NCBI GenBank assembly: GCA_002050365.1
Contig: MWYZ01000080.1
Coordinates: forward strand, 1 to 64,000
DNA length: 64,000 bases
Direction: 5' to 3'
Source: Acidobacteria bacterium 28-1
GTDB taxonomy: Bacteria; Acidobacteriota; Blastocatellia; Pyrinomonadales; Pyrinomonadaceae
Shown: in pieces, positions 1-5,374 of the stretch
Layout: each line of letters starts with the position of its first letter
Numbering within the stretch: the first letter of the stretch is position 1
Made by a program: the position numbers and the translations under genes
The notes under the pieces: model-generated
Told to the model about the DNA's origin: nothing
The model's input: the letters and a program-made list of their open reading frames with translations, nothing else
Databases searched by the model: none

Positions 1-120
1 AATGATGTGCTAGTGGCACAAAGACAAAAACGCAAAGGAATGTCGTGGTCAAAGAATGGCTCAAGAAATTTAGCAATCGTGACGGCACATCTCAATCAAG
101 GCACGAATTATTTACAGTAA
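1..120 (+). pseudogene. C-terminal tail of a transposase-like protein, cut by window edge
   Basis: Frame 1 is open from base 1 to a TAA at 118-120 and encodes about 39 residues. The string KRKGMSWSKNGSRNLA resembles the C-terminal region of several IS transposases (UPF0236/ISLre2-like or ISKra4-like tails carry similar 'G-M-S-W-S' segments). It is followed at once by a PIN-domain remnant in another frame, as expected where an IS end has landed in a toxin gene. The 5' part is outside the window, so the family is not settled. Confidence 0.4.
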
Positions 121-284
121 CTAAAAATATGTCGGCAACCGTCCTGCAAAATGACGCGCTGATTGCTCGCAGCGAATACACGCACGATTGTTTTGTGGTC
201 ACGGAAAACGTGAAAGATTTTTCTCTTTTGCAAAAAGTGATGCCGAAGCTCGAAGTGATTCCAGCCGCCGATTTTTTCAGTTAA
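121..284 (+). pseudogene. PIN-domain toxin remnant (3' end only)
   Basis: The last ~50 codons of the ORF ending at 284 read NDALIARSEYTHDCFVVTEN followed by VKDFSLL. This matches the C-terminal part of VapC-like PIN domains: the 'NDALIA' helix, then 'vvTrNvkDF' with the last acidic active-site residue. The N-terminal half, with the first catalytic Asp, is missing. Upstream of about base 121 the sequence belongs to a transposase-like reading frame, so the ATG at 45 is not a credible start. I infer an IS-truncated toxin gene; no antitoxin partner is visible. Confidence 0.5.
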
Positions 285-610
285 AATCCGCGTGAGCTGC
301 ACATTGCGCAATGGTCACAAGGCTTGGCTGTCGGTTCATACGGGCAAGCCTTTTCCGTTTGCGAAGCATTGATAGTTTCGTCGGCGAGTTCTTCGAGGTC
401 GGCAAATTTTTCCTGGCTGGAATGAAATGATTTGTAATTTGGGACTTGGGATTTGGGATTTTGAATGGCAATTTGCAATTCGATGCGGTCTAATCTTTCA
501 TTAATTTTTTCGAGGCTAGATTGTAGAGAATAAAAATCAGCATTTTGCATTTCCGTTTGCAGGAGTCGCGCAATTTTTTCGGCAAGAATTTGAGTGTTTG
601 CGTTTTCCAT
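281..610 (-). CDS. small BMC-operon protein with a C-terminal four-cysteine motif
   Basis: 109 residues from ATG 610; the track's upstream start at 637 lies in repeat DNA. Residues ~1-50 are predicted helical/coiled (LEKINERLDRIELQ). A segment reading IQNPKSQVPNYKSF is translated intergenic-type repeat. The protein ends in CPYEPTAKPCDHCAMCSSRGF-like sequence, that is C-x8-C-x2-C-x2-C followed by SSRGF, suited to binding Fe-S or zinc. It is the last gene of the minus-strand microcompartment operon, 42 bases after a BMC-P gene. I do not recognise a named family. A redox or metal role for the compartment is inference; a targeting tail is the alternative. Confidence 0.6.
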   Translation of the reverse strand: MENANTQILAEKIARLLQTEMQNADFYSLQSSLEKINERLDRIELQIAIQNPKSQVPNYKSFHSSQEKFADLEELADETINASQTEKACPYEPTAKPCDHCAMCSSRGF

Positions 611-1015: not shown

Positions 1016-1288
1016 GTTATTAAAGACGTGCGAATCTGAATCAACAATTCCGACAATCGTACAATCGGTCGGTGTCGAATCGCGTTTAAAAGGAAAGCTC
1101 GCTTCTTTGCCGCGACACCAGAAAACCAATTCGCCCGCGCCCGCGCCAACCGCGTCGAGCGCGACTTGCGGTTTACCTTTCGGTTTCAAATTAGCGTCCA
1201 AAGTTTGCACGATTAAAAACTTGCGCCCTTCGAGCGATTCGTTTTTGACGGTTGCGACAACCGTTCCGATGACGCGAGCTAACTGCAT
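1010..1288 (-). CDS. BMC-P pentameric vertex protein (EutN/CcmL family)
   Basis: 92 residues beginning MQLARVIGTVVATVKNESLEG, with the conserved 'VALDAVGAGAGELVFWCRG' core strand-loop and a 'DCTIVGIVD' ending. It is a vertex pentamer of the microcompartment shell. It starts with no intergenic base after the DoxX gene (stop at 1289), so the two are translationally close. The last codons and the stop fall in the hairpin repeat that follows. Sequence divergence from the other two BMC-P proteins suggests they are not interchangeable. Confidence 0.92.
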   Translation of the reverse strand: MQLARVIGTVVATVKNESLEGRKFLIVQTLDANLKPKGKPQVALDAVGAGAGELVFWCRGKEASFPFKRDSTPTDCTIVGIVDSDSHVFNNG

Positions 1289-1690
1289 TTAATTTTTAAT
1301 TTTGCCGAAATGCGAAACTGCCAACGTGATAAAAACTGCAATGAGCAAAACGCTGTATTCCGCGCCATTTTTGCCTGCGCCGACGACAAACCAGCCTTCT
1401 TTCAAATGAACGAGTAAAATTCCGCACAACAGGTGAACGGCGAAAATTATCGCCAACGGCGCGACGTAACGACCAATTGCCAGAAGAACGCTCCCGACAA
1501 TTTCAAAACTCGTGATTGCCCACGCTAGATAAAAGCCAAGCGGAAAATTATTAAGCGTTAAGAATTCGCCAAAGTCATCTACAATTCCGAAATAAATTCG
1601 CGCAATTCCGTGAATCAACATTAATAATGCGACAGTAATTCGCAAGAAAATCAACGCAAAATTTCGGCTTTGTTCAACCTTCATTTTCAT
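1289..1690 (-). CDS. DoxX-family small integral membrane protein
   Basis: 133 residues with four predicted membrane segments (about 12-33, 50-68, 72-95 and 108-127) and the DoxX-type opening FLRITVALLMLIHGIARIYFG. DoxX/YphA-type proteins are quinone- or respiration-associated membrane proteins whose exact roles vary. The start overlaps the end of the upstream BMC-P by 17 bases (an alternative ATG at 1684 gives 11), and the stop abuts the next BMC-P start. It is therefore embedded inside the shell-protein run, an unusual place for a membrane protein. A link between compartment metabolism and the membrane is inference only. Confidence 0.82.
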   Translation of the reverse strand: MKMKVEQSRNFALIFLRITVALLMLIHGIARIYFGIVDDFGEFLTLNNFPLGFYLAWAITSFEIVGSVLLAIGRYVAPLAIIFAVHLLCGILLVHLKEGWFVVGAGKNGAEYSVLLIAVFITLAVSHFGKIKN

Positions 1691-1955: not shown

Positions 1956-2030
1956 AGTGAATAGTAAATAGTGAAAAGTGAATAGTCGAGAACAAAAACT
2001 TTTCGCTATTCACTTTTCGCTTTTCACTTA
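1956..2030. repeat. heptanucleotide hairpin between BMC-H and first BMC-P
   Basis: AGTGAATAGTAAATAGTGAAAAGTGAATAG (left) faces CTATTCACTTTTCGCTTTTCACTTA (right): degenerate tandem heptamers of the GTGAATA/GTGAAAA kind in inverted orientation. The right arm includes the TAA of the BMC-H gene. Such a stem between the major facet protein and the minor vertex protein could affect their relative mRNA levels (inference). Confidence 0.7.
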
Positions 2031-2306
2031 TTTAAGTCCAAGCGGTAAAACATCGTCAACGCTGCCGTGCGGACGCGGAATAACGTGGACGCTAACGAGT
2101 TCGCCGACCCGCCGCGCCGCCGCCGCGCCTGCGTCGGTTGCCGCTTTGACCGCCGCGACATCGCCGCGCACGATCGCCGTTACAAAACCCGCGCCGATTT
2201 TTTCGTATCCGACGAGATTTACATTCGCGGCTTTAACCATCGCGTCTGCCGCTTCAATCATCGCCACCAAACCTTTACATTCAACCATTCCTAATGCTTC
2301 TTGCAT
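2028..2306 (-). CDS. BMC-H hexameric shell protein (PduA/EutM-like)
   Basis: 92 residues with a single BMC domain: residues 5-25 ([19 protein letters not shown]), pore loop IGAGF at 37-41, then '[19 protein letters not shown]' and '[10 protein letters not shown]'. BMC-H hexamers tile the facets of the shell and their central pore passes metabolites. A good ribosome site (AGGAGA, 7 bases before ATG) fits a highly expressed structural protein. It is the only BMC-H in the window; others may lie elsewhere. A short C-terminal tail, [12 protein letters not shown], follows the domain. Confidence 0.95.
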
Positions 2307-2325: not shown

Positions 2326-2916
2326 TTATGATTCAAAAACAATTCCCAGATAAATTTCATCAACGCTCAAATCGCAATCGAGTGATTCGAGCCTTAGTGT
2401 TTCACCGTCAACATATTCACTTTGAAACCAAAATTTTTCGTTGTGTTTGGCGTAAAGAGTAACAAATTTCTTTATTTGCGAAACTAAAATATATTCCCGC
2501 AAACTTTCGATTGATTTATATGCTTTAAATTTTTCTTCTCTATCGTAATTTTCAGTCGAAGGCGAAAGAACTTCGACAATTAAAGTCGGATTGACGAGCA
2601 ATCTCGATTTTCCTAAATCTTCGTAAATCGGCTCTCCACACAAAGCTGAAACATCACCGAAACGATACGGTAACATTGCCGGAACTTTTATTCTCACATC
2701 GGATTGAAAAACCAAACAACCTTTTGGATTTAACTCTCTACGCAACAAAAAAATAATTTGACTTCCCAAAAGCGAATGTTCGGGACTTCCGCCGCTCATC
2801 TCAATCACTTCGCCGTCAAAGTATTCGTAACGTCCTTCGGCGTTAAAATCAAACTCCAGATATTCTTCCAGAGACATTTGTTGACTTGTAATCGGAATCG
2901 CAGACATAACTTTCAT
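2326..2916 (-). CDS. Uma2-family (DUF820) PD-(D/E)xK nuclease-like protein
   Basis: 196 residues. The family signature is clear: MSLEEYLEF near the start, 'GRYEYFDGEVIEMSGGSPEHS', a 'DVSALCGEPIYED' strand, then 'PTLIVEVLSPSTENYDREEKFKAYKSI', giving the acidic and Lys active-site residues of the restriction-endonuclease fold. Family members are abundant and scattered in Acidobacteria and cyanobacteria; their function is largely unknown. The start overlaps the aldolase stop (ATGA, 4 bases) and the gene lies between the aldolase and BMC-H. It is probably a passenger insertion rather than a compartment component. Confidence 0.85.
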   Translation of the reverse strand: MKVMSAIPITSQQMSLEEYLEFDFNAEGRYEYFDGEVIEMSGGSPEHSLLGSQIIFLLRRELNPKGCLVFQSDVRIKVPAMLPYRFGDVSALCGEPIYEDLGKSRLLVNPTLIVEVLSPSTENYDREEKFKAYKSIESLREYILVSQIKKFVTLYAKHNEKFWFQSEYVDGETLRLESLDCDLSVDEIYLGIVFES

Positions 2917-3713
2917 CCAATGTTAGCGGCTTGCGCCAGCAGTTCAATCAGTTCTTCGCGCGTGAAAGAAATTTTTTCACCGTTCGAGTTTCCATCATTT
3001 ACCGATTCCGCGTCAAGCGAACATTTTATATCAGTGTGTTCTAAGTATCCGCACGTCTGACATCTGGCTGCTTGGGTTAAATAACCGGCTTTCTCTCTGA
3101 TGTTAATAAGTTTTTCGATAGCGTCTTTCGGTAGATCATTTGCGCCGCCGAGAGTTTTAGCGAGGATAGCAATTTTCGCCGTATGCTCTAAAGTTTCTAA
3201 TCTATCGAAGGCTTGCCACAAATCTTCGCCATACGCGACCGCACCGTGATTCGCCATCAAAAGCGCGTTATGATGCGCGACGAACGGCTTCATTGATTCG
3301 GTTAATTCGCTCGTCGAGGGCGTTCCGTAATCGGTTAAAGGAACACAACCCAAAGTTAAAATAACTTCCGAAAGAATCGGCGCGTCAATCGCTAAACCCG
3401 CAACGGAAAACGCCGTTCCGTGCGGCGGATGCGCGTGGCAGACGGCGTTGATGTCGGGACGCATTTTGTAAATAAGCAGGTGCATCGCCAGTTCTGACGA
3501 CGCTTTTTTGTCGTTCAAAGCCTTACCGTCCAAAGCGGTTAAAGCTAAACCGTCTTCGGTCATTCGCCCTTTTGAAACTTGCGTCGGCGTGGCGAGAATT
3601 CGATTTTCGTCTAGGCGAATGCTGACGTTGCCATCGGAAGACACGACATAGCTTCGCTCATAGAGCAATTTCCCGACTTCGATAATAAGTTTTCGCGCCT
3701 CTCTCTCGTCCAT
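2913..3713 (-). CDS. class II aldolase (fuculose/rhamnulose-phosphate aldolase type) with putative BMC encapsulation peptide
   Basis: 266 residues. The class II aldolase/adducin fold spans about 1-200, with catalytic Glu74 (SSELAMH), zinc ligands His93 and His95 (HAHPPHG) and His156 (MANHG). Such enzymes split fuculose-1-P or rhamnulose-1-P to dihydroxyacetone phosphate and lactaldehyde, the toxic aldehyde kept inside the shell. After the enzyme comes a linker with Cys208-x2-Cys211 and Cys221. A final amphipathic helix, FTREELIELLAQAANIG, has the look of an encapsulation peptide. Known fucose/rhamnose compartments carry such tails on this aldolase. It starts directly after the preceding gene's stop. 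The exact sugar phosphate is not provable here. Confidence 0.88.
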   Translation of the reverse strand: MDEREARKLIIEVGKLLYERSYVVSSDGNVSIRLDENRILATPTQVSKGRMTEDGLALTALDGKALNDKKASSELAMHLLIYKMRPDINAVCHAHPPHGTAFSVAGLAIDAPILSEVILTLGCVPLTDYGTPSTSELTESMKPFVAHHNALLMANHGAVAYGEDLWQAFDRLETLEHTAKIAILAKTLGGANDLPKDAIEKLINIREKAGYLTQAARCQTCGYLEHTDIKCSLDAESVNDGNSNGEKISFTREELIELLAQAANIG

Positions 3714-4236: not shown

Positions 4237-4578
4237 TTATTTGACTCGACGCGGTTCACTAATACCATCCGACCCTAGAGTATTCGGTATCGGTGGCGGA
4301 ACAAACTCGCCCATACCGTCACTATTCAACTCATAGGTTGCCGAAAACCTATCAATCTTTCGCTGCGCTTCGTTTCTCAGACGAAGATTTTCATCGCGCA
4401 ATTGTTGATTTTCAAGTTCCATTTGACGGTCATACTGCTGATGATTTCTTTTCCAATTACGGCTTTTGAATTGAAAGCTCGGCGCGGCAACCGTAACAAA
4501 GAAACTGGCAACAAACAGTCCCACGGCAAACGTTAAGAAAAATGGAACGATTCTTTTCACAAATCCTTTACAACACAT
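4237..4578 (-). CDS. small membrane-anchored coiled-coil protein of unknown function
   Basis: 113 residues. The N-terminus MCCKGFVKRIVPFFLTFAVG has a basic patch and an anchor helix (~10-32), then a charged coiled-coil with LENQQLRDENLRLRNEAQRK (~55-75), and a Pro-rich end (VPPPIPNTLG). A GAGAGG ribosome site lies upstream. The anchor is of a kind seen in TonB-like proteins of this group, but no TonB domain follows, so it may be a truncated relative. It sits between rex and the BMC operon on the same strand. Confidence 0.55.
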   Translation of the reverse strand: MCCKGFVKRIVPFFLTFAVGLFVASFFVTVAAPSFQFKSRNWKRNHQQYDRQMELENQQLRDENLRLRNEAQRKIDRFSATYELNSDGMGEFVPPPIPNTLGSDGISEPRRVK

Positions 4579-4646: not shown

Positions 4647-5294
4647 TCAATTTTTCCCGTTGGAATTTGTCGGCTGCGCCAAAAAATATGAAAGGCTTTC
4701 AAGCGAAATCGTCAAATCAACAGTTTTTACTTTCACATCTCCTTCAACCTTCAACGGTGTCGGCGCAAAATTCATCACCGCTTTGATTCCCGCTTTCGTA
4801 ATTATTTCCAAAACGCTTTGGGCAACCGCCGCGGGAACGGCGATGACTGCAACATCTATCTTATCTCTTTTGGCGATGCGAGCAAAGTCTTTGATGTCAA
4901 AAATCTCCACGTCGCCAATCTTCTGTCCGATTTTCTCTTTGTCTGCATCAAACATCGCGGCAACCGAGAAATTCGTCTGCGTTAGACCGTAATAATCCGC
5001 CAAAGCTGTTCCAAGTCTTCCCGCGCCGATAATCGCTACGCAATGTTCTGTATTGAGTCCGAGAATTTTTGTCAAATGCTCGCGCAACTCATCAACGTAA
5101 TATCCGACACCGCGCACACCAAACTCACCGAAATACGCCAAATCCTTGCGAATCTGCGCCGAATTTAAATGAAAACGCTTTGCCAAACCGTCGGATGACA
5201 CTGTTTTTACATTTTCCGCCGCTAGTGCGTTCAGACAGCGCAAGTAGATGCTCATCCGGTTAGTGGTTAATTCAGATATTTTTTCGACCTTCAT
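4647..5294 (-). CDS. rex: redox-sensing transcriptional repressor Rex
   Basis: 215 residues from ATG 5294 (MKVEKISELTTNR); the longer track start adds 22 unlikely residues. An N-terminal winged helix has the Rex signature 'LNSAQIRKDLAYFGEFGVRGVGYYV'. A Rossmann NAD(H)-binding core follows with 'AIIGAGRLGTALADY', then a C-terminal domain-swap helix. Rex dimers release DNA when the NADH/NAD+ ratio rises and so control fermentation and respiration genes. It lies just upstream of the BMC operon on the same strand, so a redox input to that operon is possible. I found no clear Rex operator by eye. Confidence 0.92.
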   Translation of the reverse strand: MKVEKISELTTNRMSIYLRCLNALAAENVKTVSSDGLAKRFHLNSAQIRKDLAYFGEFGVRGVGYYVDELREHLTKILGLNTEHCVAIIGAGRLGTALADYYGLTQTNFSVAAMFDADKEKIGQKIGDVEIFDIKDFARIAKRDKIDVAVIAVPAAVAQSVLEIITKAGIKAVMNFAPTPLKVEGDVKVKTVDLTISLESLSYFLAQPTNSNGKN

Positions 5295-5374
5295 CTCTAT
5301 TAAAAGATTATATTCTTTAAACGTAAAAAGTGAAAAACTTCGCAACCTAATGATGAGCAAAAAGTTTTGTGTCG

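Follow-up and report, generated by a model that had tools for sequence, protein, structure and literature searches.

How NADH and electrons are balanced in sealed bacterial microcompartments (BMCs) is an open question, and a small protein encoded near one end of the window studied here may bear on it. The window comprises the first 64,000 nucleotides of contig MWYZ01000080.1 (GCA_002050365.1) of Acidobacteria bacterium 28-1, a metagenome-assembled genome of the Pyrinomonadaceae. The gene of interest, here termed the tail gene, spans positions 281–610 of the minus strand, with an ATG at 610 and a stop codon at 281–283, and its ORF translation is 109 amino acid residues long. The product ends in KACPYEPTAKPCDHCAMCSSRGF, whose pattern C-x8-C-x2-C-x2-C-SSRGF places four cysteine residues at the extreme C-terminus, as a sequence-only reading of the window had claimed. 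What would such a protein do in a BMC? We consider it probable, at roughly 60%, that it is an accessory component of ACI-type BMCs, that is, a small encapsulated or shell-tethered protein with one metal site, slightly favored to be of the [4Fe-4S] type, that would serve as a redox center.

An ACI-type BMC operon on the minus strand ends with the tail gene. It begins with a gene for the NADH-sensing redox repressor Rex (4647–5360; NCBIfam PRK05472, E 6.3e-76), and genes for a class II aldolase, a BMC-H and three BMC-P proteins follow. Its position 3′ of the BMC-P genes agrees with the earlier claim that it closes a shell operon. The aldolase (2913–3713, minus strand; PF00596, E 1.5e-46) carries a C-terminal encapsulation peptide (EP), KISFTREELIELLAQAANIG, which was assigned by its form. 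The BMC-H hexamer shell protein is encoded at 2028–2306 (minus strand; PF00936, E 9.5e-30), and the BMC-P shell vertex proteins are encoded on the same strand at 1674–1952, at 1010–1288 and at 653–937 (EutN/CcmL; PF03319, E 1.8e-20). The last of these is the paralogue found ahead of the tail gene in almost every locus. Also on the minus strand, a small protein with a hydrophobic N-terminus followed by a charged, helix-like part (4237–4578) had no Pfam match and recurred between Rex and the aldolase (cluster 19, in 11 loci). A putative nuclease of the Uma2 family (2326–2916, minus strand; PF05685) and a DoxX-family membrane protein (1289–1690, minus strand; PF07681; present in 4 of the compared loci) are sporadic insertions. 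The search for a Rex operator returned only weak sites with 3 mismatches.

In the main text of the BMC catalogue, the ACI locus of Acidobacteria is described as containing a class II aldolase (PF00596) with C-terminal EP, a BMC-P triplet, BMC-H, a satellite aldehyde dehydrogenase and "several proteins of unknown function," with the tail protein left unnamed (Sutter et al., 2021, PMC8217296). We found no paper that describes the tail-protein family; the main text of this catalogue mentions none, and the gene may be drawn without a name in its diagrams. Similar to the ACI type, the window contains a PF00596 aldolase with C-terminal EP, a BMC-P triplet and at least one BMC-H, and the same genome has an aldehyde dehydrogenase beside BMC-H genes on a satellite contig (G000:C73). 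By its predicted gene content, the window locus thus matches the ACI type. The hydroxyacid dehydrogenase of ACI loci (PF00389/PF02826) was not found in the BMC loci of this genome, an absence that is not final as the locus contig is incomplete; PF02826 matches were on contigs C17, C56 and others, not on C24 or C73. Since a class II aldolase and an aldehyde dehydrogenase of the acylating type are encoded in ACI loci, NADH and CoA chemistry is expected inside. We know of no proven substrate for the ACI BMCs of soil Acidobacteria. Beyond the ACI type, related tails also adjoin detached BMC-P genes in other families. The aldolase itself possesses a CxxCGYLH...C motif before its EP (3021–3062, minus strand), which was found in 31 of 34 Pyrinomonadaceae-like loci and not in several other families. 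For this reason, the motif was rejected as a general partner site of the tail.

The AlphaFold model of the window protein contains three helices, at residues 2–20, 23–50 and 64–87. Residues 1–20 (551–610) are predicted to form a putatively amphipathic, EP-like helix. It is followed by a coiled-coil helix of residues 23–50 (461–544), which is modeled confidently (pLDDT ~93 at residues 31–40) and whose weak Pfam and PDB matches were all of the coiled-coil type; an N-terminal coiled coil had been proposed from the sequence and is indeed there, as it is in other Pyrinomonadaceae-like members. Then come a linker (residues ~50–62; 425–463), a conserved H-[PS]-S motif with the second helix beyond the first 20 residues (residues 63–87; 350–424; alignments A1 and A2) and the four-Cys tail (residues 89–109; 284–346; alignments A1, A2, and A4). 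The tail is modeled with low confidence (pLDDT ~60–66), and the pTM of the model is 0.28. Searches of Pfam, NCBIfam, PHROGs and PDB with the whole protein returned coiled-coil noise only, the profile searches found no BMC domain in it, and Pfam and NCBIfam families do not cover it.

The linker is translated heptamer-repeat DNA, which bears out the suggestion that repeat DNA lies between the coiled coil and the tail: its heptamer pattern had 146 near-matches (≤2 mismatches) in the same genome, vs. 0 for the reversed control. The linker also has the highest sequence entropy among the protein segments and the tail the lowest, the mean column entropy falling from 2.7 bits to 0.54. Tandem repeats of these heptamers (TTTGGGA/TTTTGGA) are abundant in the genome (e.g., G000:C30:39245-39276), and at least one is within a coding sequence. 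Similar short tandem repeats are known in cyanobacteria.

When 84,980 species genomes were scanned with the window protein, a search that divergent tails would escape, 37 relatives were identified, all of them acidobacterial by record title. In the 35 aligned orthologues from Pyrinomonadaceae/Blastocatellia (A1), all four cysteines, KPCD and RG were kept. Across six families of the class (A2; 26 tails), the invariant residues were the four cysteines and the penultimate glycine only. In 396 Acidobacteriota genomes, a model built on the tail alone recovered the members from the class as well as 36 weak matches from other classes, of which CVIEPAVPCDHCGYCKSHGH is an example, and 97 distinct tails were read in Acidobacteriota. 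In the phylum-wide alignment (A4), the first, second and fourth cysteines and the penultimate glycine were invariant. The middle cysteine that varies was replaced by serine or threonine in seven distinct tails from a few lineages, and the following glycine was kept in all seven. Thus, the cysteines, whose conservation in relatives had been set as a check, are the most conserved residues in all three alignments. Moreover, TGT and TGC codons were mixed at all four cysteine positions, so selection acts on the protein. The tail is judged not to be a chance sequence, because it is kept in 35 aligned orthologues with mixed cysteine codons. The histidine of CDHC was rejected as a metal ligand, as it varies to N, R, Q, E, and D.

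The rest of the protein varies among lineages. In other classes, the minimal form is ~66–75 residues long and comprises an N-terminal helix, a disordered linker rich in proline, alanine and glycine, often an H-x-S motif, and the Cys tail. Its N-terminal helix is exemplified by MTEDELRGLVREAIARHL, and the same end reads M[TN][ED]xELRxLVRxAIARH. Because other-class members are as short as ~66–75 residues, Pyrinomonadaceae-like members have, on the sequences compared, elaborated the protein with the coiled coil. This coiled coil is lineage-specific in these alignments, as is the repeat; what is shared widely is the N-terminal helix and the Cys tail. Since other classes lack the coiled coil and the repeat-derived linker, these were rejected as the functional core. 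Judged by eye, the linkers of other lineages seem to have taken up different repeats.

In some lineages, the minimal form is extended by a coiled coil or a TIGR02536-like domain. The tail is fused to such a domain in two other members of the class, genomes G275 and G227 (loci L059:7945-8595 and L127:2044-2772). Although this N-terminal domain resembles TIGR02536 ("eut_hyp," an ethanolamine-utilization protein), the match of L059 (E 7.5e-10, 38.8 bits) is far below the family cut-off of 152.6; L127 is homologous to L059, and the window protein has no match. Family f10 showed weak signs of a TIGR02536-related domain. A plasmid search with the fusion form of the tail protein returned no match. 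At L059, the next gene encodes a GlpX-type class II fructose-bisphosphatase, which also stands behind BMC-P and the tail gene in L060 and L063.

BMC cargo is recruited via terminal amphipathic helices. The hydrophobic moment of the N-terminal helix of the tail proteins was at about the 91st percentile of shuffled sequences in A1 and at the 77th in other classes. When compared with the EPs of the aldolases, this helix did not score above shuffled controls.

Tail genes are tightly linked to BMC-P genes. Among the 89 tails with upstream sequence, 87 were preceded by a BMC-P gene no more than 1.5 kb away on the same strand; the other two belong to genomes of one genus in which the tail gene is relocated. 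The weak other-class matches with upstream sequence were all directly behind a BMC-P gene. In families f3, f5, f6, and f7, BMC-P lies away from the aldolase/BMC-H locus and the tail gene stays with BMC-P. The sequence-only reading had raised the question of whether the tail is found mostly outside BMC loci; almost all of its occurrences are at BMC loci, immediately behind BMC-P. In the relocated cases (L064 of G259 and L065 of G373), the tail gene is ~27 kb from the BMC locus, and its usual downstream neighbor, which is on the opposite strand, still adjoins it.

The tail also co-occurs with BMC genes. PF00936 was found in 173 of the 396 Acidobacteriota genomes; a credible tail was present in 71 of these 173 and in none of the 223 PF00936-negative genomes. 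In 80 BMC-positive genomes, a retrained model identified 14 more tails with E values of 1.2e-5 or lower; 13 were strong, and the weakest, in G393 (E 1.2e-5), is at an unchecked position, so the count is 13–14. In 80 BMC-negative genomes, the same model gave no match below E 0.0068. In total, at least 84 of the 173 sampled BMC-positive genomes carry a tail. About half of the BMC-positive genomes had no tail match, and these may possess other BMC types or unrecognized tails. In family f3, three genomes of genus g15 lack BMC genes and also the tail, and two sister genera have both. Six low-scoring matches in PF00936-negative genomes (E 0.007–0.04) were judged to be chance, four of them, all in family f46, on the basis of coordinates and low score alone; the matches in f46, G041, G204, and G347:C21 were rejected as chance.

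Could the gene be a hitchhiker in the operon, or a spurious ORF, with no role in the BMC? Its linker of translated repeat DNA, its absence from the BMC-bearing Pyrinomonadaceae genome G291 and its distance from the BMC locus in the two genomes of one genus would fit such an explanation, which is nevertheless contradicted by conservation and co-occurrence: the 97 distinct tails share invariant residues with synonymous change, nearly all stand beside BMC-P, and BMC-negative genomes contain no credible tail. We therefore find it scarcely credible. Another explanation is that redox-switchable disulfides between the cysteines, or mixed disulfides joining them to shell or cargo, control assembly or permeability. 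Rex, a redox sensor, heads the locus, the BMC-P of 1010–1288 (GELVFWCRGKEASFPF) and the aldolase also carry cysteines, and three-Cys forms exist, which a disulfide model tolerates. However, the fixed x7/8, x2, and x2 spacing and the mostly small residue in CxxC[GAS]xC suit metal ligation better, and the CxxCGYLH of the aldolase does not track the tail outside Pyrinomonadaceae-like loci. Disulfide switching is thus improbable.

The four-Cys tail is probably a metal site, for either Fe-S or Zn. The core pattern of ferredoxins is CxxC[GA]xC, and the tail contains it; its glycine is kept in the three-Cys forms, and Rex heads the operon. These observations count for an Fe-S redox center, whereas the loss of the middle cysteine in several lineages counts against it. 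Ferredoxins tolerate substitution of this cysteine, which is an aspartate in Pyrococcus furiosus ferredoxin. No 4Fe-4S Pfam family matched the tail protein, which has the local CxxC[GA]xC pattern alone in common with ferredoxins. The best PDB match of the tail profile, a weak one, was the structural zinc loop of an alcohol dehydrogenase (5vm2, E 0.015), and one member weakly matched L-idonate dehydrogenase at the tail (NF007375, E 0.063). The tail shares [IV]EPGxPCxxCxxC with the zinc loops of MDR alcohol dehydrogenases (PDB 5vm2, 1e3j, and 6dkh), and its profile resembles their four-Cys loop, [IV]EPxxPCxxCxxC. The tail may accordingly be a structural zinc knuckle in an assembly linker, whose EP helix and Zn-folded tail would hold different partners, at the BMC-P vertex or on the aldolase cargo, with no electron transfer. 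A linker protein would be in keeping with a gene that is tightly linked to BMC-P and not to an oxidoreductase, as well as with the coiled coil and the variable linker. In MDR enzymes, however, the loop sits inside a large enzyme and the fourth cysteine is downstream (CxxCxxC-x7-C), whereas in the tail protein it is upstream, the protein ends there and no enzyme domain is present. Moreover, a middle serine or threonine suits Zn poorly, and the similarity is weak, with no Pfam alcohol dehydrogenase family matched. On balance, the zinc linker is rather unlikely as a whole; given a metal, Fe-S is slightly favored from the sequence over Zn, which is a serious rival.

In the preferred reading of a tethered redox center, the N-terminal amphipathic helix would act as an EP and hold the protein against the inside of the shell, probably at or close to the BMC-P vertices. 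The flexible linker would then present the four-Cys motif, which would hold one metal site, slightly likelier a [4Fe-4S]-type cluster than zinc. This cluster may serve as a tethered redox or electron-relay center for the NADH- and CoA-linked aldehyde chemistry inside. The earlier suggestions that the protein connects shell and redox chemistry, or that it is a cargo adaptor, are likewise inferences. It is possible, though doubtful, that the tail proteins are a previously unrecognized family of EP-tethered mini-ferredoxins, each with a targeting helix and a ~20-residue cluster tail. If true, electrons could enter or leave the organelle through such clusters at the BMC-P vertices.

Accessory Fe-S proteins of BMC loci, some of them in the shell, include PduT, GrpU, and PduS, and the BMC-H protein PduK carries a tetracysteine motif at its C-terminus, a possible FeS ligand (PMC6325248). 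Similar to PduK, the tail protein has a C-terminal Cys motif with a proposed Fe-S site; different from PduK, it has an EP-like N-terminus instead of a BMC-H shell domain. It can also be likened to PduT, GrpU, and PduS as an accessory redox-metal protein of a BMC locus. However, the metal is in the shell pore in PduT and GrpU and in a flavoprotein in PduS, whereas the tail protein would carry its metal on a tethered tail of unrelated fold. The tail protein is thus a candidate lumen-facing metal site. The tail gene behind BMC-P, found in about half of the sampled BMC-bearing Acidobacteriota genomes, is a marker for the locus type, and the ~70-residue protein offers a simple construct for testing and for reuse in placing metal centers in engineered shells.

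The window begins at the contig start, and its bases 1–127 exactly overlap another contig, as at an assembly-graph (k-mer) junction. The tail gene is outside this 127-base overlap and is syntenic with its relatives. Window 1–127 equals C23:327-453 and window 1098–1224 equals C23:1-127 in reverse complement (L132, G000:C23:1-453), exactly 127 bases each. Contig C23 starts in BMC-P and enters transposase-like sequence; the left end of the window may therefore be misjoined or polymorphic. At G000:C25:92-217 (L011 and L079), the 3′ end of the tail gene occurs a second time in decayed form, with a stop codon in frame, and adjoins a 29-base stretch that is also present at window 100–128. Finally, an ORF at 45–284 (plus strand) spans the contig junction and reaches the tail gene, and its end looks like a protein fragment, perhaps of the PIN type.
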